Assembly: GCF_001421505.1 (NCBI RefSeq)
Contig: NZ_LMKL01000001.1
Location: 248,001 to 312,000 of the forward strand
Direction of reading: 5' to 3'
DNA: 64,000 nt
Source: Sphingomonas sp. Leaf17
GTDB lineage: Bacteria > Pseudomonadota > Alphaproteobacteria > Sphingomonadales > Sphingomonadaceae
The translations under genes and the position numbers were made by a program. This document shows positions 43,947 to 64,000 of this stretch, piece after piece. The number at the start of each line of letters is the position of its first letter. Within the stretch, counting starts at the first letter, position 1. The notes beneath the pieces were generated by a model. That model ran no database searches. It was not told the origin of the DNA and saw only the letters and a program-made list of their open reading frames with translations.

Positions 43947-45181
43947 CGGTGACAGCCGGCACCTTCGTGGAGCGCAGCCCCGCCCGGATCGAGGGGTTGT
44001 CGACATGGCGGGCGATGCTCATGCTGATGGGCATCGTGTTCCACGCGACCTGCTGGCACGAAGGCCATCCCCTGTTCCAGGGCATCGTGCTTGCATCCTC
44101 CACCTTTCGGATGGGCTGCTTCTTCCTGATTTCGGGATTGCTCGGCGGCTATGCGCTTCGGCGGCGCGCGCCGCATGCGTGGTTGCGGCAGCGGATCGTT
44201 CGGATCGGCATACCGGCCCTGTTCGCCTATGCGACGATCACACCGATCATCGGCCTGTTGCTCGATGCCGCCCCGCCGACCGCCTTCATTCCCCGACCAA
44301 TCCCGTTCGACTGGTATCATCTCTGGTTCCTGTTCGCGCTGGTCGCCTATGCGCCGCTGACGCTTCTTCTTCACCGGCTGGACCGGACGACCGGCATGGT
44401 CGCGGGAGTAGAACGGCTGTGTCGCATCCTGCCGGGTGCGCAAACATGGGTGTTGCTGGCGGTCGCCCTCGCCTCGCTCGTGCCGATGGTTCTGGTATCG
44501 TGGATGCTGGACCAGTGGACGTCGACGACCTATCGCGCGCCGCTGCTGCAACTGCGGCTGATCGCCGGCTACGCACCGGTCTATGGTTTCGGCTTCCTGC
44601 TCGCGCGATCCGCCCTGCTGCGCGACACGATGATCGGCCGGGTCACTGCACCGGTTGCGATCCTGATGCTGATCGCCGCCGCCTATATCTGGCAATTCGC
44701 CATCCTGCCGATGCCCGTGCGTGCGTGGACCAATGCCACGCTGGTGATCGGGGCCGCTTTTGGTCCGCCGGCCGCGGCATCGCTCATCCTGCGGTCGGCG
44801 CTGGCCATCCGGTCGGTTCCGCCGTTTGTGCAGAAGCTGGCCGATGCATCGTTCACGATGTACCTGCTGCACTACCCGATCATCGTGGCGATCAAGATCG
44901 CGCTGGTTTCGGCGACCCGCGATCCGGGGATCGCCTTCATGTGCGCGATTCCGGTCGCGGCGATCCTGTCCTATGCCGCGCATCGTCGCATTGTCCTGCG
45001 GTCGCCGCGTCTCGGCTTCCTGCTGAACGGCCGCGTGCTGGAACGGCGGCCCGCGCGCGACGACCTGTCCGGTGAACATGATGGCAGTGGGGGGCTTCTG
45101 TTGCCCGGTGCCCCCCGTACCGCTGGAACCGCTTCTGTTGCCCGGTTCGGCCCGACCGCGCTTTCGTCCGAAATAAACTAG
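43928..45181 (+). CDS. Acyltransferase-3 (OafA/YrhL-like) membrane protein
   Basis: A 417-residue polytopic protein with about ten membrane helices, of the type that transfers acyl groups to surface sugars. Family hallmarks are IEGLSTWRAMLMLMGIVFHA near residues 21-40, where the His of the R-x10-H motif lies, then FFLISGLLGGYALRRR near 65, and HLWFLFALVAYAPL near 130. YPIIVAIKIALV is near 318. The GTG start at 43928 overlaps the SGNH gene. OafA proteins often carry an SGNH domain fused at the C-terminus, whereas here the two activities are adjacent genes. Its 3' end abuts the tmRNA gene tail to tail. Confidence 0.82.
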   Translation: MPDDGLTVTAGTFVERSPARIEGLSTWRAMLMLMGIVFHATCWHEGHPLFQGIVLASSTFRMGCFFLISGLLGGYALRRRAPHAWLRQRIVRIGIPALFAYATITPIIGLLLDAAPPTAFIPRPIPFDWYHLWFLFALVAYAPLTLLLHRLDRTTGMVAGVERLCRILPGAQTWVLLAVALASLVPMVLVSWMLDQWTSTTYRAPLLQLRLIAGYAPVYGFGFLLARSALLRDTMIGRVTAPVAILMLIAAAYIWQFAILPMPVRAWTNATLVIGAAFGPPAAASLILRSALAIRSVPPFVQKLADASFTMYLLHYPIIVAIKIALVSATRDPGIAFMCAIPVAAILSYAAHRRIVLRSPRLGFLLNGRVLERRPARDDLSGEHDGSGGLLLPGAPRTAGTASVARFGPTALSSEIN

Positions 45182-45427
45182 ACCGTTAGGTCCGGCTTAT
45201 GCGGCGATTGCGAGTGCTTCGTTATCGTTAGCACTTGTGGTTTTGAGCCTTTAACGGGTTACTCAGCCCGGGCGAAAACAGCGCGTTTGAATACACGTCG
45301 ATCCTGGTTCGACCCCGTCAGAACCCGCCTGAAAGACGCGTTTTGGTGGAGTCGCCGGGTACTGCCCCCGGGTCCGCTGCATCTATTGAACGCCGCACTT
45401 TATCGCCATAGCCGGGCGAACCCGGCG
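45180..45427 (-). ncRNA. ssrA: Two-piece (circularly permuted) tmRNA, SsrA
   Basis: Rescues stalled ribosomes and tags their products for proteolysis. Read leftwards, the acceptor piece comes first (about 45427 to 45344). It ends with CCCGGCGACTCCACCA, whose CCA is encoded at 45346-45344. A 27-base intervening segment (45343-45317) follows. The coding piece starts with GGGGTCGAACCAGGATCGAC at 45316, and GGGGTCG pairs with CGACTCC to form the acceptor stem (one G-U). The tag frame at 45232-45197 reads ANDNEALAIAA then TAA. The permuted order is the known alphaproteobacterial form. The 5' end of the acceptor piece is estimated from the promoter, and a small GACC/GGTC stem (45192-45181) marks the 3' end. 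Confidence 0.96.
45197..45232 (-). other. tmRNA tag reading frame
   Basis: Resume codon GCT at 45232-45230, then eleven codons encoding ANDNEALAIAA and stop TAA at 45199-45197. The C-terminal AA is the ClpXP degradation signal. The tag sequence is characteristic of sphingomonads. Confidence 0.95.
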
Positions 45428-45432
45428 TAGCC

Positions 45433-45461
45433 GATATAGGGCGGGCACCGGGGAATGAAAA
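45433..45461 (-). promoter_or_regulatory. Probable ssrA promoter
   Basis: Read leftwards, TTTTCA (45461-45456) and TATATC (45438-45433) are separated by 17 bases. A start near 45426 would sit at the expected beginning of the acceptor piece. The -35 is only a moderate match. Confidence 0.5.
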
Positions 45462-45504
45462 GCCCGCCTTTCACTCGCCACAAAGGTGGCCCATAGGTTA
45501 ATGC

Positions 45505-56424: not shown

Positions 56425-56525
56425 TGCAATTGCGAACGATCATTCCGCAGTGCACAGCGCTCAGGCCTTTCAGGCATCCTCTCCTAAAAACTTCCACGGC
56501 CGGTCTTTTGACCGGCCTTTTTTTT
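56425..56525 (+). ncRNA. Candidate small RNA with Rho-independent terminator
   Basis: A -10-like TATATT (56417-56422) is followed by about 100 non-coding bases. A small hairpin GCCT-TTC-AGGC lies at about 56465-56475, then an exposed C-rich segment ATCCTCTCC that is complementary to ribosome-binding sites. The region ends in a perfect terminator (56498-56525). Short alphaproteobacterial regulatory RNAs often combine these elements. Alternatively this is only the 3' region of the 70-residue protein mRNA. No -35 of quality is visible. Confidence 0.4.
56498..56525 (+). terminator. Strong intrinsic terminator
   Basis: GGCCGGTC (56498-56505), loop TTTT, GACCGGCC (56510-56517), then eight T. It is the best intrinsic terminator in the window. 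It ends a rightward transcript. Confidence 0.95.
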
Positions 56526-56612
56526 GGCTGTCGTGCAAGCCGGGTCCAGCCCGGATCCGGCGTGTCGCGGGAGGGGATCGACGCGGCGCACGCCCGCGCC
56601 GATCCCGCCCGA

Positions 56613-58231: not shown

Positions 58232-58810
58232 ATGCGCATCGCCATCATCGACACGAGCACCACGCGTGCCGCGATCATTTCGGACGGTCTGCGCGAGGCC
58301 GGACTCGACGATATCGTCGTGATCGACGGCATGGTCGGGATGGTCGCCGCGCTGGAAAAGGCCGCGCCCGAAGTGGTGTTGATCAACCTCGAAAATCCCA
58401 GCCGTGACGTGCTGGAGGAATTCTTCGCGGTGTCCCGCGCGCTCGCGCGCCCGATCGCGATGTTCGTCGACCAGAGCGATGCCGAATCCACCGCCGCCGC
58501 CGTCGATGCGGGCGTCTCCGCCTATATCGTCGACGGCCTGGCCAAACAGCGGATCAAGCCCGTCATCGACCTTGCCGTCCGCCGGTTCCAGGCGTTCGCC
58601 CGGTTGCAGGCCGAGTTGCAAGAAGCCCGAAGCGCGCTGGCCGATCGCACGACGATCGACCGCGCCAAGGCGATCCTGATGAAACGGCGCGGCATCGACG
58701 AACCGACCGCCTATGGCCTGCTCCGCGCGCAGGCGATGCGATCCAACCGCCGGATTGCCGAGATCGCCGACGCGATCATCACCAGTGACGCACTGATGGG
58801 AGACTTGTGA
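58232..58810 (+). CDS. nasT: NasT, ANTAR-domain nitrate antiterminator
   Basis: A 192-residue RNA-binding regulator. An N-terminal receiver-like domain (about 1-115) begins MRIAIIDTSTTRAAIISDGL, and the position of the phospho-acceptor Asp after strand 3 is Asn52 (EVVLINLENPSRDVLEEF). A coiled segment (about 118-135) joins it to the ANTAR domain (about 135-190: TTIDRAKAILMKRRGIDEPT, then AYGLLRAQAMRSNRRIAEIA). ANTAR proteins bind paired hexaloops and prevent terminator formation. Such a leader lies downstream at 60116-60231. The stop overlaps the nasS ATG. Confidence 0.9.
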   Translation: MRIAIIDTSTTRAAIISDGLREAGLDDIVVIDGMVGMVAALEKAAPEVVLINLENPSRDVLEEFFAVSRALARPIAMFVDQSDAESTAAAVDAGVSAYIVDGLAKQRIKPVIDLAVRRFQAFARLQAELQEARSALADRTTIDRAKAILMKRRGIDEPTAYGLLRAQAMRSNRRIAEIADAIITSDALMGDL

Positions 58811-60024
58811 TGGCGCTCGACCGGGTCCGCATCGGCTTCCTGCCGCTGGTCGATGCCGCGCTGCCGATCCTCGCGCGCGAGCAGGGGTTTGCCGAGGCCG
58901 AGGGGCTGGAAATCGAACTGGTCCGTGACATGACCTGGGCGACGGTGCGCGACCGGTTGCTCTATGGCCATACCGACGCCGCGCACATGGTCGCGCCGCT
59001 GGCGATCGCGACCGCGCTGGGGCGCGGGCGGCCCGCGGTTCCCATGGCGGTGCCGTTCGTGCTGGGGCTGAACGGCAACGCGATCACCCTGTCGCTGCCG
59101 CTCGCCGCCCAGGTACTGGACGGCGACGCACTGGGTGATCCGGTGATGCTGGGTACACGGCTGAAGGCAGTTGCGACCGAGCGTGCGGCGGCCGGGCGAC
59201 GGCTGCGGTTCGGCGTGGTGCACCGCTATTCCAGCCACAACTACATGCTGCGCTACTGGCTGGCGGCGGTGGGGATCCGCCCCGATACCGATGTCGAGAT
59301 CGTCACGACCAGCCCGCCCTTCGCCGCCGATGCACTGGCGGCGGGCGAGGTCGACGGCATCTGCGTCGGCGAGCCGTGGAACGGCGTCGCGGTCGATCGC
59401 GGCGTCGGTCGGATCGCGCTGGTGACCGCGCAGGTCTGGCGGCGCGGCGTCGAGAAGGTGCTGGCGATGCGCCAGGCGACGCTGGACGAGCGCGGCGACG
59501 TCGTCCAGCGGTTGATCCGCGCGCTGCACGCGGCAGCGGCACACTTCGTCGACCCCACCACGCGCGAGGCCAGCGCCGCCATTCTCGCGCGGGCCGGCTA
59601 TCTCGACGCGCCGTGCGATACGGTCATGCGCGCGATCAGCGATCAGGTCCGGCTGGTGAAGGACGCGACGCCGATCCACGTTCCCGACTTCATGTTCCAG
59701 TACCGCGAGGCGGCGAACTTCCCGTGGCGCAGCCAGGCGGCATGGCTGTATTCGCAGATGGTGCGATGGGACGGCGCCGACTTCTCGACCCAGCAGGCAG
59801 ACATCGCGCAAGGCGTGTTCCGCCCGGACGTGTATCGCGCCGCGCTGGCGGGGTCGGACGCGCCGTTGCCAAGCGCGAGTTCCAAGCTGGAAGGCGCGAT
59901 CGGCGCGGTCAGCATCGGTGCGGGGTCGACGCAGGGGCGCCTGATCCTTGGCCGGGATGCGTTCTTCGATCGGCGCGCGTTCGATCCGGACGATATCGAG
60001 GGGTATCTGGCGCAGCTGCCGTAA
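58810..60024 (+). CDS. nasS: NasS, cytoplasmic nitrate-sensing protein (NrtA/CmpA-like)
   Basis: A 404-residue periplasmic-binding-protein-like fold related to NrtA, but with no signal peptide (MALDRVRIGFLPLVDAALPI begins directly with the domain), so it acts in the cytoplasm. VRDMTWATVRDRLLYGHTDA near residues 38-57 and GEVDGICVGEPWNGVAVDRG near 178-197 are NrtA/NasS features. In known systems, NasS binds nitrate or nitrite and then releases NasT. The one-base overlap with nasT (TGATG) supports this. No permease or ATPase genes follow, which also argues against a transport role. Confidence 0.9.
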   Translation: MALDRVRIGFLPLVDAALPILAREQGFAEAEGLEIELVRDMTWATVRDRLLYGHTDAAHMVAPLAIATALGRGRPAVPMAVPFVLGLNGNAITLSLPLAAQVLDGDALGDPVMLGTRLKAVATERAAAGRRLRFGVVHRYSSHNYMLRYWLAAVGIRPDTDVEIVTTSPPFAADALAAGEVDGICVGEPWNGVAVDRGVGRIALVTAQVWRRGVEKVLAMRQATLDERGDVVQRLIRALHAAAAHFVDPTTREASAAILARAGYLDAPCDTVMRAISDQVRLVKDATPIHVPDFMFQYREAANFPWRSQAAWLYSQMVRWDGADFSTQQADIAQGVFRPDVYRAALAGSDAPLPSASSKLEGAIGAVSIGAGSTQGRLILGRDAFFDRRAFDPDDIEGYLAQLP

Positions 60025-60115
60025 ATCTGCTGCACATGCGAAATGCCGCTTGCGCGCCCGACGCGCTTCGGTCATCTTCGCATCGTCCGGCAAGGGAGTC
60101 GGACACGAAATCATA

Positions 60116-60231
60116 GCGCGATCGGTTCCAACGAAGGGGCCTGACCGCGCAGGGCGATCCACCGATCGCCCCCAGGCAACGAAGCCGCTCCGATGCGTCC
60201 GCAAGGTCGCCGTCGGGGCGGCTTTTTCTTT
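60116..60231 (+). promoter_or_regulatory. ANTAR-type antitermination leader of the nitrate operon
   Basis: Two hexaloops of identical sequence AACGAA (A at 1, G at 4) are present. P1 is GGTTCC-AACGAA-GGGGCC (60124-60141), inside an outer GCGCG/CGCGC stem (60116-60120, 60146-60150). P2 is GGC-AACGAA-GCC (60175-60186). The 3' arm of P2 is the first three bases of the terminator 5' arm, so the two exclude each other. An extra 8-base hairpin GGGCGATC/GATCGCCC (60152-60171) lies between. NasT binding should stabilise P1/P2 and let transcription continue. Confidence 0.88.
60184..60231 (+). terminator. NasT-controlled attenuator terminator
   Basis: GCCGCTCCGA (60184-60193) pairs with TCGGGGCGGC (60213-60222), ten pairs with one G-U. 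TTTTTCTTT (60223-60231) follows. It overlaps hexaloop hairpin P2 of the leader and ends 25 bases before the transporter ATG. Confidence 0.88.
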
Positions 60232-60256
60232 GTCCGCCGCAGATGGAGGGCCGACC

Positions 60257-61639
60257 ATGTTGTTCGCATCACCGGGTATCGACACCGCCGCACCCAAGGC
60301 CACCCGGATCGACCTGTTCAGCGCCGCCACGCCGCCGATGCGCGCCTTCCACGTTACCTGGGCGGCGTTCTTCGTGTGCTTCTTCGCGTGGTTCGCCGCC
60401 GCCCCGCTGATGCCGCTCATCAAGGCCGAGTTCGGCCTGAGCAAGGACCAGATCGCCAACATCAACATCGCCGCGGTTGCGGTGACGATCCTCGTCCGGC
60501 TGGTCGTCGGGCCGCTCTGCGACCGGTTCGGTCCGCGCCGCACCTATACATGGCTGCTCCTGCTCGGTGCGATCCCGGTGTTCGGGCTGGCGTTCGCGCA
60601 GACGTACGAGACGTTCCTGTTCTTCCGCCTCGCGATTGGGGCGATCGGCGCGTCGTTCGTCATCACGCAATATCACACCAGCGTGATGTTCGCCCCCAAC
60701 GTCGTCGGCACCGCCAACGCGACCGTCGGCGGCTGGGGCAATGCGGGCGGCGGCGCGGCGCAAAGCCTGATGCCGCTGGTCGTCGCTGCACTGGTCGGGC
60801 TTGGCGTCGAGCATGCCTGGGGCTGGCGCGCGGCGATGTTCGTGCCGGGTGTCGCGATGCTTGCGATGGCGTTCGTCTATGCGCGCTACACGCAGGATAC
60901 GCCGCAGGGCGACATCGTCGACCTCCGCGCAGCCGGCATGGAACTGGACGGCGGCAAGGCGACCGGCATGGCGATCTTCCGCCGCGCCGCCGCCAATTAC
61001 CGGACCTGGATGCTCGCCGCGACCTACGGCGCGTGCTTCGGCGTCGAGATCTTCATCCACAATATCGCGGCGAGCTATTACGTCGACCGGTTCGGGCTGT
61101 CGCTGACCAATGCCGGGCTGGCCGCCGGGATCTTCGGTGGCCTCGCGCTGTTCGCCCGCGCGCTCGGCGGGATCGCGAGCGACCGGATCGCGCTCGTGAG
61201 AGGCCTCGACGGGCGCGCGCTGCTGCTGTTCGCGCTGATGCTCGGCGAGGGTATCGGACTGGTCCTGTTCGGCAACGCCGGCAGCGTGACGCTGGCCATT
61301 CTCGCGATGACGATGTTCGGGCTGTTCACCCACATGGCGTGCGGCGCGACCTATGCGCTGGTGCCGTTCATCGACCGCAAGGCGCTGGGCGGGGTCGCCG
61401 GGCTGATCGGCGCTGGCGGCAACATCGGCGCGGTCGCGGCGGGGTTCCTCAACAAGGCGTCGGCCACTCCGCAGCACTGCCTCGTGGTGCTTGGCTACAT
61501 CGTCACCGGCACCGCGGTCTGCGCGCTGGCGGTGCGCTTTTCCGCCACGCACAAATCGGACGAGCGCGCGCTGCTCGACGCGGCGCTCGACGCACGGCGG
61601 CGCAGCGAGCGACCATCGAACCGCGCCATCCCCGCCTGA
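60257..61639 (+). CDS. Nitrate/nitrite MFS transporter (NarK/NasA family)
   Basis: A 460-residue, 12-helix major facilitator of the nitrate/nitrite porter group. The first signature is FFAWFAAAPLMPLIKAEFGL near 38-57. MFS loop VGPLCDRFGPRRTYT is near 81-95. The Gly-rich nitrate signature in TM5 is NATVGGWGNAGGGAAQSLMP near 154-173, and the second is GLIGAGGNIGAVAAGFLNKA near 381-400. GGAGG precedes the ATG at 60257. The terminator/antiterminator leader just upstream indicates control by NasT/NasS. It imports nitrate for assimilation. nirB follows after 41 bases. Confidence 0.92.
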   Translation: MLFASPGIDTAAPKATRIDLFSAATPPMRAFHVTWAAFFVCFFAWFAAAPLMPLIKAEFGLSKDQIANINIAAVAVTILVRLVVGPLCDRFGPRRTYTWLLLLGAIPVFGLAFAQTYETFLFFRLAIGAIGASFVITQYHTSVMFAPNVVGTANATVGGWGNAGGGAAQSLMPLVVAALVGLGVEHAWGWRAAMFVPGVAMLAMAFVYARYTQDTPQGDIVDLRAAGMELDGGKATGMAIFRRAAANYRTWMLAATYGACFGVEIFIHNIAASYYVDRFGLSLTNAGLAAGIFGGLALFARALGGIASDRIALVRGLDGRALLLFALMLGEGIGLVLFGNAGSVTLAILAMTMFGLFTHMACGATYALVPFIDRKALGGVAGLIGAGGNIGAVAAGFLNKASATPQHCLVVLGYIVTGTAVCALAVRFSATHKSDERALLDAALDARRRSERPSNRAIPA

Positions 61640-61680: not shown

Positions 61681-64000
61681 ATGGAATACCAAACCTCCTC
61701 TCCCGACACACCCTTTTCCAAAAGGCGCGAACACCTCGTCGTGATCGGCAACGGTATGGCCGGCTGTCGCGCGGTCGAGGAACTGATCGCGCGCGACCCG
61801 ACCCGTTACCGCGTCACGATCTTCGGTGCCGAACCGCATGTGAACTACAACCGCATCATGCTGTCGCCGGTGCTGGCGGGCGAGAAGACGTTCGAGCAGA
61901 TCGTCATCAACGATCATGCCTGGTACGCCAGCAACACGATCGCACTCGTGACCAGCGATCCGGTGCAGGCGATCGACCGCGTGGCGAAGACCGTCACCGC
62001 GCGGTCCGGGCTGAGCGTGTCGTATGACCGGCTGCTGATCGCGACCGGGTCCGATCCGTTCATCATCCCCGTCCCCGGCAAGGACCTCCCCGGCGTGATC
62101 TCGTTCCGCGACATGGCCGATGTCGACCACATGCTGGAGGCGGCCGGAAAGGGTGGCGCTGCGGTCGTCATCGGTGGCGGGCTGCTCGGACTTGAGGCCG
62201 CGCACGGGCTCACGTTGCGGGGCATGAAGGTCACGGTGATCCACCTGATGCCGACGCTAATGGAGCGGCAGCTCGACGAGGCGGCGGGCTGGTTGCTCAA
62301 GTCGGCGCTGGAGGCGCGCGGTCAGGTCATCCTGACCGAGGCGAACACGGCCGAGATCGTCGGCGATACCCGCGTCGAGGGCGTGCTGCTGAAAGACGGT
62401 ACGCTGATCCCAGCCAGCCTAGTCGTCATGGCGGTCGGCATCCGTCCCTCCGTCGCCCTCGCGCGCGAAGCCGGGCTGGAGATCGGGCGCGGGATCAAGG
62501 TCGACGACCATATGGTCACCAGCGACCCGTCGATCCTCGCGGTCGGCGAATGCGTCGAGCATGACGGCAACGTCTACGGCCTCGTCGCGCCCCTGTGGGA
62601 CATGTGCCGCGCGCTCGCCGACGGGCTCACCGACAGTCACAGCGGCTATCGCGGATCGGTGACCTCGACCAAGCTGAAGGTCGCCGGGCTCGACGTGTTT
62701 TCGGCGGGCGACTTCTCGGGCGGTGCCGGCGCGGAGGATATCGTCCTGCGCGATGCGTCGCGCGGCATCTACAAGCGCGTGGTGGTCAAGGATGACCGGA
62801 TCGTCGGCGCGGTGCTGTACGGCGACACCAGCGACGGCGGCTGGTATTTCGACCTGCTCAAGCGCGGCGAGGACATCGCCCCCATCCGCGACATGCTGAT
62901 CTTCGGCCAATCCTTCGCTTCGGGAGGGGCGCAAGCGGACCCTAAGGCGGCCGTTGCGGCGCTCTCCGACGATGCGGAGATTTGCGGCTGCAACGGCGTC
63001 ACGAAGGGCAAGGTCGTGGCGTGCATCGGCGCGGGCAACGCGACGCTCGACGCGGTCCGCGCGACCTGCAAGGCGTCCGCATCGTGCGGGTCGTGCACGG
63101 GTCTTGTCGAGACGTTGCTCGCGGTCACGCTCGGCGACGAGTATTCGGGCGAACGTGCGGTGAAGACGGTGTGCAAATGCACCAGCTTCGGCCACGACGA
63201 CGTCCGCCGCGAGATCGTCGCGCAGGGCATGCGATCGATTCCCGAAGTGATGCAGAAGATGAGCTGGTCGACGCCCGATGGGTGTTCGTCGTGCCGCCCT
63301 GCGCTCAACTACTATCTGCTCTGCGCGCTGCCCGGCGAGTACAAGGACGACCAGCAGAGCCGGTTCGTCAACGAACGGCTGCACGCCAACATCCAGAAGG
63401 ACGGCACCTATTCGGTCGTGCCGCGGATGTGGGGCGGCGTGACCAACCCTCGCGAACTGCGCGCGATCGCCGATGTCGTCGAGAAATACGACGCGCCGAT
63501 GGTCAAGGTGACGGGCGGCCAGCGGCTCGACATCTTCGGGATCAGGAAGGAGGATCTGCCCGCGGTTTGGGCCGATCTCAACGCCGCGGGGATGGTCAGC
63601 GGCCATGCGTATGGCAAGAGCTTGCGCACCGTGAAGACGTGCGTCGGGTCCGACTGGTGCCGGTTCGGGACGCAGGATTCGACCGGTCTCGGCGTCAAGG
63701 TCGAGCGGATGACCTGGGGCTCGTGGATGCCGCACAAGTTCAAGATCGCGGTCAGCGGCTGCCCGCGCAACTGCGCCGAGGCGACGATCAAGGATTTCGG
63801 CGTGGTCTGCGTCGACAGCGGCTACGAGCTGTCGGTCGGCGGCAATGGCGGGATCAAGGTCCGCGCGACCGACTTCCTGTGCAAGGTCGCGACCGAGGAC
63901 GAGGCGATGCAGTATTGCGCCGCGTTCATCCAGTTGTACCGCGAGGAAGCGCGCTATCTGGAGCGCACCGCGCCGTGGATCGAACGCGTCGGGGTGGAGT
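61681..64000 (+). CDS. nirB: Assimilatory nitrite reductase [NAD(P)H] large subunit, 3' end outside the window
   Basis: At least 773 residues are visible with no stop. The FAD/NAD(P)H domain (about 1-400) starts HLVVIGNGMAGCRAVEELIA, and a second nucleotide site is VVIGGGLLGLEAAHGLTLRG near 163-182. Two BFD-like [2Fe-2S] regions follow (EICGCNGVTKGKVV with CGSC near 433-480, and VCKCTSFGHDD with CSSC near 496-540). A ferredoxin-like sulfite/nitrite reductase half and the siroheme-4Fe4S ligands TCVGSDWCRFGT near 653 and GCPRNCAE near 699 complete it. An in-frame ATG at 61639 overlaps the transporter stop and would add 14 residues. It reduces nitrite to ammonium. The small subunit and nitrate reductase are expected just beyond the edge. 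Confidence 0.95.
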   Translation, partial: MEYQTSSPDTPFSKRREHLVVIGNGMAGCRAVEELIARDPTRYRVTIFGAEPHVNYNRIMLSPVLAGEKTFEQIVINDHAWYASNTIALVTSDPVQAIDRVAKTVTARSGLSVSYDRLLIATGSDPFIIPVPGKDLPGVISFRDMADVDHMLEAAGKGGAAVVIGGGLLGLEAAHGLTLRGMKVTVIHLMPTLMERQLDEAAGWLLKSALEARGQVILTEANTAEIVGDTRVEGVLLKDGTLIPASLVVMAVGIRPSVALAREAGLEIGRGIKVDDHMVTSDPSILAVGECVEHDGNVYGLVAPLWDMCRALADGLTDSHSGYRGSVTSTKLKVAGLDVFSAGDFSGGAGAEDIVLRDASRGIYKRVVVKDDRIVGAVLYGDTSDGGWYFDLLKRGEDIAPIRDMLIFGQSFASGGAQADPKAAVAALSDDAEICGCNGVTKGKVVACIGAGNATLDAVRATCKASASCGSCTGLVETLLAVTLGDEYSGERAVKTVCKCTSFGHDDVRREIVAQGMRSIPEVMQKMSWSTPDGCSSCRPALNYYLLCALPGEYKDDQQSRFVNERLHANIQKDGTYSVVPRMWGGVTNPRELRAIADVVEKYDAPMVKVTGGQRLDIFGIRKEDLPAVWADLNAAGMVSGHAYGKSLRTVKTCVGSDWCRFGTQDSTGLGVKVERMTWGSWMPHKFKIAVSGCPRNCAEATIKDFGVVCVDSGYELSVGGNGGIKVRATDFLCKVATEDEAMQYCAAFIQLYREEARYLERTAPWIERVGVE

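Follow-up and report, generated by a model that had tools for sequence, protein, structure and literature searches.

A leader with three ANTAR-type hexaloops between nasS and the nitrate-assimilation genes of Sphingomonas sp. Leaf17, a probable NasT-controlled transcription attenuator

In the leaders of eut operons, two hexaloops are reported to be required for antitermination and are separated by linkers of 5–12 nt, a 14-nt linker impairing antitermination and the addition of 20 nt abolishing it (PMC3369931, PMC8934654), and a survey of actinobacterial ANTAR targets allowed linkers of 2–25 nt (PMC8164766). The use of the two loops is disputed: an earlier model has an ANTAR dimer holding both simultaneously (PMC3369936), while the EutV dimer is described as seemingly unable to hold both together, which led to a model of recruitment followed by hand-over (PMC8934654). 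Tyr164 and Met172 are described as stacking on G4 and seating the loop in the EutV structure (PMC8934654). For nitrate assimilation, the NasS-NasT pair of Paracoccus is reported to form a heterotetramer that dissociates with nitrate or nitrite, the freed NasT being oligomeric (broadly consistent with a hexamer) and binding the nasA leader (PMC3795266), and both nasT and the leader hairpin HI are reportedly required for growth of Paracoccus denitrificans on nitrate (PMC5424462).

We analyzed 64,000 nt of Sphingomonas sp. Leaf17 (contig NZ_LMKL01000001.1, positions 248,001–312,000; hereafter the window), in which the leader between nasT-nasS and the nitrate assimilation genes (Table 1), where a NasS-NasT-controlled leader is expected, very probably works as an on/off switch that a protein under nitrate control reads. 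An earlier note on this DNA had described positions 60116–60231 as a textbook ANTAR RNA with two hairpins, P1 and P2, and its placing of nasT and nasS upstream and of nitrate genes downstream was borne out by domain matches (ANTAR, NMT1_2, NarK-like MFS, and NirB). The transporter scores 295 bits against the NarK model TIGR00886, under the cut-off of 311.7. Past the window, 3' of nirB, the genome has a NirD-like frame (recognized by eye) and genes for a molybdopterin oxidoreductase of 865 aa and for a tetrapyrrole methylase. Among eight plasmid records with nasS, seven carry an annotated ANTAR gene immediately 5' of it, the remaining record being without annotation. The window also holds an alphaproteobacterial (permuted) tmRNA at 45124–45465 (–, 231 bits) and a suhB/mmgR small RNA at 56458–56532 (+, 50.8 bits).

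Table 1. Positions of the leader parts, upstream elements and neighbouring genes in the window
Feature	Position	Strand	Description
nasT	58232–58810	+	receiver-like domain and C-terminal ANTAR domain (Pfam PF03861, E 4.3e-19)
nasS	58810–60024	+	NrtA/NMT1-like nitrate/nitrite sensor partner (PF13379, NMT1_2, E 1.5e-64); overlaps the nasT stop
Motif TGCnGCnn(n)TGCRAA	60028–60043	+	few bases 5' of the –35-like element; in 59/79 leaders
Promoter-like TTGCGC-17-CATCTT	60050–60078	+	best-scoring pair per leader; predicted +1 at 60085
H1, hexaloop hairpin	60085–60104	+	7 bp, GUCCGGC-AAGGGA-GUCGGAC, loop AAGGGA; predicted transcript 5' end
H1-H2 linker	60105–60115	+	11 nt, purines conserved
H2, hexaloop hairpin (P1 of the earlier note)	60116–60150	+	outer stem 5 bp, inner stem 6 bp, loop AACGAA at 60130–60135
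S, spacer hairpin between H2 and H3	60152–60171	+	8 bp; sequence and length vary among relatives
H3, predicted antiterminator hexaloop (P2 of the earlier note)	60175–60186	+	3 bp, loop AACGAA at 60178–60183
Intrinsic terminator	60181–60228	+	–33.5 kcal/mol; U tract from 60223; 5' arm takes in the H3 3' arm
MFS nitrate/nitrite transporter	60257–61639	+	first gene after the leader (PF07690, E 2e-32)
nirB	61681–64000, continues beyond the window	+	TIGR02374, 903 bits

Judged by the description of ANTAR targets given by Ramesh et al. 2012 (hairpins of at least 3 bp with hexaloops carrying A1 and G4), the leader contains three such hairpins, the last of which overlaps an intrinsic terminator. The two AACGAA hexaloops with A1 and G4 claimed in the earlier note are both present, and the arm that it took to be shared between P2 and the attenuator is indeed shared, positions 60184–60186 lying inside the 5' arm of a terminator in which 60181/60183–60193 pair with 60213–60223/60225. 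The epithet "textbook" has to be given up, as exactly two hexaloops are expected of a dual-hexaloop target and H1 is a third conserved one: the extent given to the leader missed this A1/G4 hairpin upstream of it, P1 is the middle loop of three, and the P1-P2 linker is longer than those of eut. Only the H1-H2 linker (11 nt) is inside the 5–12 nt range, while the 24 nt between H2 and H3, occupied by the 8-bp hairpin S, are outside it and inside the range of 2–25 nt. A search against Rfam 15 returned no family at the gathering threshold for the leader (lowest E 2.5, with a score of 12.6 bits where the threshold is 40; Rfam may lack an ANTAR-target family), and these matches were set aside as chance, leaving Rfam of no use here as a family test.

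Predicted folding separates two mutually exclusive states. The stretch 60100–60240 folds more strongly than its shuffled versions (z –5.42, 0/200 as good), and so does the pre-terminator stretch 60085–60190 (z –4.73, 0/200 as good). When the RNA ends at 60190, the structure of minimum free energy (–51.2 kcal/mol) consists of exactly H1, H2, S and H3 and makes up 76% of the ensemble, and when it extends to 60228 the minimum (–81.0 kcal/mol) consists of H1, H2, S and the terminator, with H3 displaced. Enforcing H3 in the full-length fold gives –73.2 kcal/mol, the leftover upper terminator stem being detached from the U tract.

For the comparison with related leaders, the DNA behind nasS was collected from the best 80 of 308 relatives, nearly all sphingomonads, and joined with the window (81 places); locus L039, with only 52 nt after nasS, was excluded, resulting in an alignment of 80 rows (the window and 79 loci). 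The places of H1, H2 and H3 all align in 79/80 rows, the sole failure being L033 (Sphingomonas pseudosanguinis), where nasS is present and the leader was not found downstream (rearranged or lost). Loop changes were counted by parsimony on a NasS protein tree, which is independent of the leader (n = 79). For loop positions 1 to 6, this gave 7, 4, 12, 1, 10 and 11 changes in H1, 0, 8, 10, 0, 12 and 16 in H2, and 0, 0, 3, 0, 0 and 0 in H3. H2 thus shows the ANTAR signature, H1 shows G4 with a purine at position 1, and H3 is nearly frozen. The expectation that loop positions 1 and 4 of the two known hairpins would be kept in orthologous leaders was confirmed, A1 and G4 of H2 and H3 being retained in 79/79 without a single change on the tree; in H3, positions 1, 2, 4, 5 and 6 are invariant (79/79), the last bases of its loop being also part of the terminator. 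Position 1 of H1 drifts between A and G (G in 10/79), and two H1 loops are irregular (C4 in L055 and a loop of 5 nt in L064). The earlier emphasis on two identical A1/G4 loops survives only as far as A1 and G4 are concerned: the H2 loop reads AACGAA in 5/80 rows and takes 19 different words among the 80, and the identity of the two loops was dropped as a meaningful feature.

The stems are conserved as structures. Both-side pair changes were observed in 249 cells against 89.9 after shuffling (0/500 shuffles as high), and shifting the pairing partners along the alignment lowers every measure. Paired cells amount to 94% in H1, 97.5% in the inner stem of H2 and 99% in the terminator, the base of which is invariant among related leaders. 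In the MAFFT alignment, pairing is poor in the outer stem of H2 (61%) and in S (48–53%); when the H2-H3 stretch was folded singly for each leader, at least 7 pairs formed in 77/79, with an energy more than 1 sd below that of its own shuffles in 61/79. The gap from loop to loop is 30–33 nt for H1-H2 and 39–58 nt for H2-H3, and the H3 stem has 3 bp in 68/79 leaders. All three hexaloops are open in the single best pre-terminator fold of only 44/79 leaders; the open H2 loop is missing in 5/79 and the open H3 loop in 2/79, and H1 forms an open hexaloop in 46, a tetraloop with positions 1 and 6 paired in 29, and not the expected hairpin in 4.

Upstream of H1, the best –35/–10-like pair has a spacer of 17 in 74/79 leaders and its –10-like end lies 6–7 nt 5' of the first H1 base in 76/79, a position that puts the predicted +1 at H1, so that H1 would form the 5' end of the RNA; we infer a transcript start at ~60085, at the base of H1. 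A consensus scan demanding a closer match found no promoter in the window leader. The motif in front of the promoter-like pair lies at –57/–58 from H1 in 53 of the 59 leaders that have it and is a possible candidate site for a nitrogen-control activator. Similar words were also seen by eye ahead of two-loop leaders.

At E 0.001, the genome of the window encodes one ANTAR match, NasT, and it contains one strong match of the leader model (143 bits, the next scoring 13.1 bits); its weak matches at E 3–10 were rejected as chance by eye. In a sample of the order (246 genomes, of which 51 have an ANTAR match), the leader model matches 29 genomes, 27 of which also have an ANTAR match. The leader-model matches in the two genomes without one (L143 and L157) were likewise rejected by eye as chance, the former lying inside a frame resembling elongation factor Ts plus its terminator. 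No leader-model match was found in 24 of the 51 ANTAR-holding genomes, four of which (G341, G456, G472, and G523) carry leaders of a second lineage, and the other families of a class sample gave three weak matches (L088–L090). Phage records contained nothing similar to the leader. Second-lineage nasTS was also seen on plasmids of Sphingomonas sp. NIC1 (L161) and Sphingomonas sp. FARSPH, with NasS 100% identical and the leader read in NIC1 only, which suggests transfer of the switch.

NasT aligns along its full length to EutV (PDB 6wsh/6ww6, E 8.7e-17). Among 131 NasT proteins, the RNA-contact residue Tyr164 of EutV is Tyr in 123 and Met172 is kept in all 131, both being present in the protein of the window. 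The phospho-acceptor Asp54 of EutV is replaced by Asn in 86/131, the window included, which fits a NasT that works without phosphorylation, under the control of NasS. At this site, Asn was seen in 83/88 rows of the three-loop set (which takes in L033 and L039, where the leaders are unconfirmed) and Asp in 12/13 two-loop rows; this and the other differences between the NasT proteins of three-loop and two-loop organisms may simply reflect the phylogeny, and no causal role is claimed for them.

The spread of three-loop leaders was surveyed by searching the 330 nt that follow nasS for C-G closed A-N-N-G hexaloops (stem of 3 bp or more) and scoring a locus when three of them fell within 120 nt, irrespective of order or terminator overlap (one locus, L132 = L217, belongs to two of the groups). 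Three A1 loops were found in 70/83 loci of the window's group, 0/14 of its sister clade, 9/30 of the second sphingomonad NasS lineage, 9/29 Rhodobacterales-like loci and 2/29 other alphaproteobacterial loci (shuffles 0–0.1%). With G1 also allowed, the counts in the same order were 78/83, 2/14, 22/30, 16/29 and 8/29 (shuffles 0.3–2.1%), and with G1 and 7-nt loops 78/83, 4/14, 26/30, 25/29 and 12/29 (shuffles 2.6–9.8%). Requiring A1 and stems of at least 4 bp left 7/83, 0/14, 7/30, 2/29 and 1/29, a drop mainly caused in the window's group by the 3-bp stem of H3. "Rhodobacterales-like" is our label: 20 of these 29 loci come from one family, so named because the records that its NasS matched in a set of 29 plasmid records all belong to Rhodobacterales genera, and 9/29 are named records. 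Three loops are thus clear in the window's group. In the second sphingomonad lineage they are well supported provided that G1 is allowed, in Rhodobacterales they are likely provided that G1 and 7-nt loops are both allowed, and elsewhere in the alphaproteobacterial sample they are not the rule. With the criteria at their strictest (A1, stems of 5 bp and an overlapping terminator), two upstream loops were reported in 61 of the 81 main-group places, one in 15 and none in 5. The terminator-overlap detector applied to other alphaproteobacteria misses leaders with a weak U tract (e.g., Paracoccus), so a negative from it is no evidence of absence. At L244 a convergent gene lies directly behind nasS and a leader is not expected.

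In a Rhodobacter leader (L238), the predicted fold has three hexaloops, all of them open. In P. denitrificans (L237), candidate [A/G]NNG hexaloops (AACGGC, AATGAT and GACGAT) lie 155, 130 and 107 nt before a start codon, the first and last being open in the pre-terminator fold and the middle one having positions 1 and 6 paired. Across the Rhodobacterales-like loci (L217–L241), the middle hairpin, ~20 nt before the terminator loop, was often seen with a 7-nt loop that still starts with [A/G]NNG. Two genomes (G463:C11 and G493:C10; L149, L152, L150, L154) each hold two two-loop leaders ~5.7 kb apart, where one NasT may serve two transcripts.

A NasS tree was labelled by hand for loop number on a subset of loci (27 of L002–L081, the window and 36 others). 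The sister clade (13 two-loop sphingomonad leaders and one unclassified row, support 100/100) stands beside the window's group on a joining branch with support 96/77, and more three-loop rows lie outside that branch. H1 was not seen in the sister clade, where the loop starts are ~48–52 nt apart, as far as those of H2 and H3 in the window. The outgroup of 12 rows has 7 two-loop and 5 unclassified leaders, of which L122 and L132 look three-loop. On this tree, the three-loop label needs 4 changes, at least 3 of them on well-supported branches; for the sphingomonads taken alone, leaving the Rhodobacterales aside, a single gain plus a single loss of H1 would be enough to account for the pattern.

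From the parts of the leader and the way they are conserved, the two predicted folds that exclude each other, the genes on either side and the one NasT encoded in the genome, we read the leader as a transcription attenuator through which NasT controls the nitrate-assimilation operon, with H1-H2 loading NasT and H3 acting as antiterminator, at a probability of about three in four (0.76). The attenuator under NasT and NasS proposed in the earlier note accordingly stays the best reading, while its dual-hexaloop target does not. By analogy with NasS-NasT of Paracoccus and with EutV, from which NasT binding, loading order, readthrough and nitrate dependence are carried over, RNA polymerase would start at ~60085 and the hairpins would form in turn, H1, then H2 after the linker, then S and H3. 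When nitrate is absent, NasS would hold NasT, the terminator would displace the weak 3-bp H3 and transcription would stop. In its presence, NasS would free NasT, which would load on the H1-H2 pair and hold H3; since the terminator stem has the 3' arm of H3 at its base, a held H3 would leave the terminator shortened and moved off the U tract, and the polymerase would read through. H1-H2 obeys the spacing rule but lies off the terminator, and H3 lies on the terminator but 24 nt and a hairpin away, so in the simplest reading NasT would be recruited on H1-H2 and then handed over to H3, which S would keep close by.

If NasT used H2 and H3 only, as in an ordinary dual-hexaloop attenuator, H1 would be a hairpin that stabilises the 5' end and resembles the target by chance. 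The sister clade, two-loop and with its loops about as far apart as H2 and H3, agrees with this, as do the drift at position 1 of H1 and the pairing that its positions 1 and 6 could form in 29/79 leaders, and two-loop relatives with similarly long spacing imply that leaders in general can do without a third loop or a short linker. We nevertheless consider it unlikely: a stabilising role would not demand G4, but in H1 this base changed once in 79 leaders while positions 3, 5 and 6 changed 10–12 times, the H1-H2 loop gap is held within 30–33 nt as against 39–58 nt for H2-H3, and the 24-nt H2-H3 linker exceeds the 5–12 nt of eut, where 14 or an added 20 nt are reported to have broken antitermination (PMC3369931, PMC8934654).

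The opposite division, with H1-H2 as the whole ANTAR target, NasT acting in some other way (e.g., on translation or RNA stability) and H3 a mere hexaloop-like terminator foot, would account for H1-H2 alone being canonically spaced and for the 3-bp H3 stem of 68/79 leaders. It is nonetheless highly improbable, given that five H3 loop positions (1, 2, 4, 5 and 6) are invariant in 79/79, although only the 3' arm and last loop bases of H3 belong to the terminator, and that two-loop leaders of other alphaproteobacteria retain the terminator-overlapping loop. To a nitrate-independent terminator with remnant loops we give next to no credence in view of the conserved loop positions, the linked nasT and nasS reading frames, both open, and the invariant base of the terminator.

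Beyond the attenuator with H1-H2 loading NasT and H3 as antiterminator, a wider generalization is possible, and we offer it tentatively, as somewhat less probable than its negation: three consecutive G4 loops, and not two, may form the basic target of NasT in both Sphingomonadales and Rhodobacterales, with the 5'-terminal H1-H2 pair recruiting NasT, perhaps as several dimers of a released oligomer (as in Paracoccus), and H3 serving as a separate antiterminator loop that takes NasT over. The rule of two hexaloops would in that case be no more than a particular instance, at which one sphingomonad clade would have arrived by losing H1. If true, the leader would split two tasks that are merged in eut, recruitment and antitermination. 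A canonical pair off the terminator together with a distant third loop on it makes a natural test of whether loops are bound together or in turn, and related bacteria with and without H1 provide a matched comparison. Searches for dual-loop targets may cut three-loop leaders wrongly, as happened in the earlier note.

A three-loop ANTAR leader was not found in the titles, abstract starts and passages of the open-access literature searched (including PMC7496416, PMC8164766 and PMC6759348; subscription literature, e.g., the Azotobacter NasT paper, was mostly outside this scope), and no open-access work combining Sphingomonas, nitrate assimilation and antitermination was found. Like the EutV target leaders of the Enterococcus faecalis eut operons, the leader of the window has A1/G4 hexaloops, the last of which overlaps an intrinsic terminator; unlike them, it has three loops instead of two and a terminator loop set 24 nt and a hairpin beyond the previous one, and, unlike EutV, the NasT of the window has Asn at the phosphorylation site. 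It shares with the NasR/nasF system of Klebsiella oxytoca the nitrate-responsive ANTAR antitermination of a nitrate-assimilation operon and the A1/G4 loops, although NasR is described as sensing nitrate itself and a two-hairpin motif as sufficient for full binding (PMC7496416, PMC3369936). With NasS-NasT/nasA of P. denitrificans it shares both the regulators and the gene order, but the nasA leader is described there with hairpins HI and HII and not with three hexaloops (PMC3795266, PMC5424462). The EutX small RNA is reported to carry an extra single hexaloop besides a dual motif, but as a sequestering RNA and not an antitermination leader (PMC8934654). Dual-loop ANTAR attenuation is thus known, with EutX as the only extra-loop precedent found in the open-access literature, and the third hexaloop is what this leader adds.
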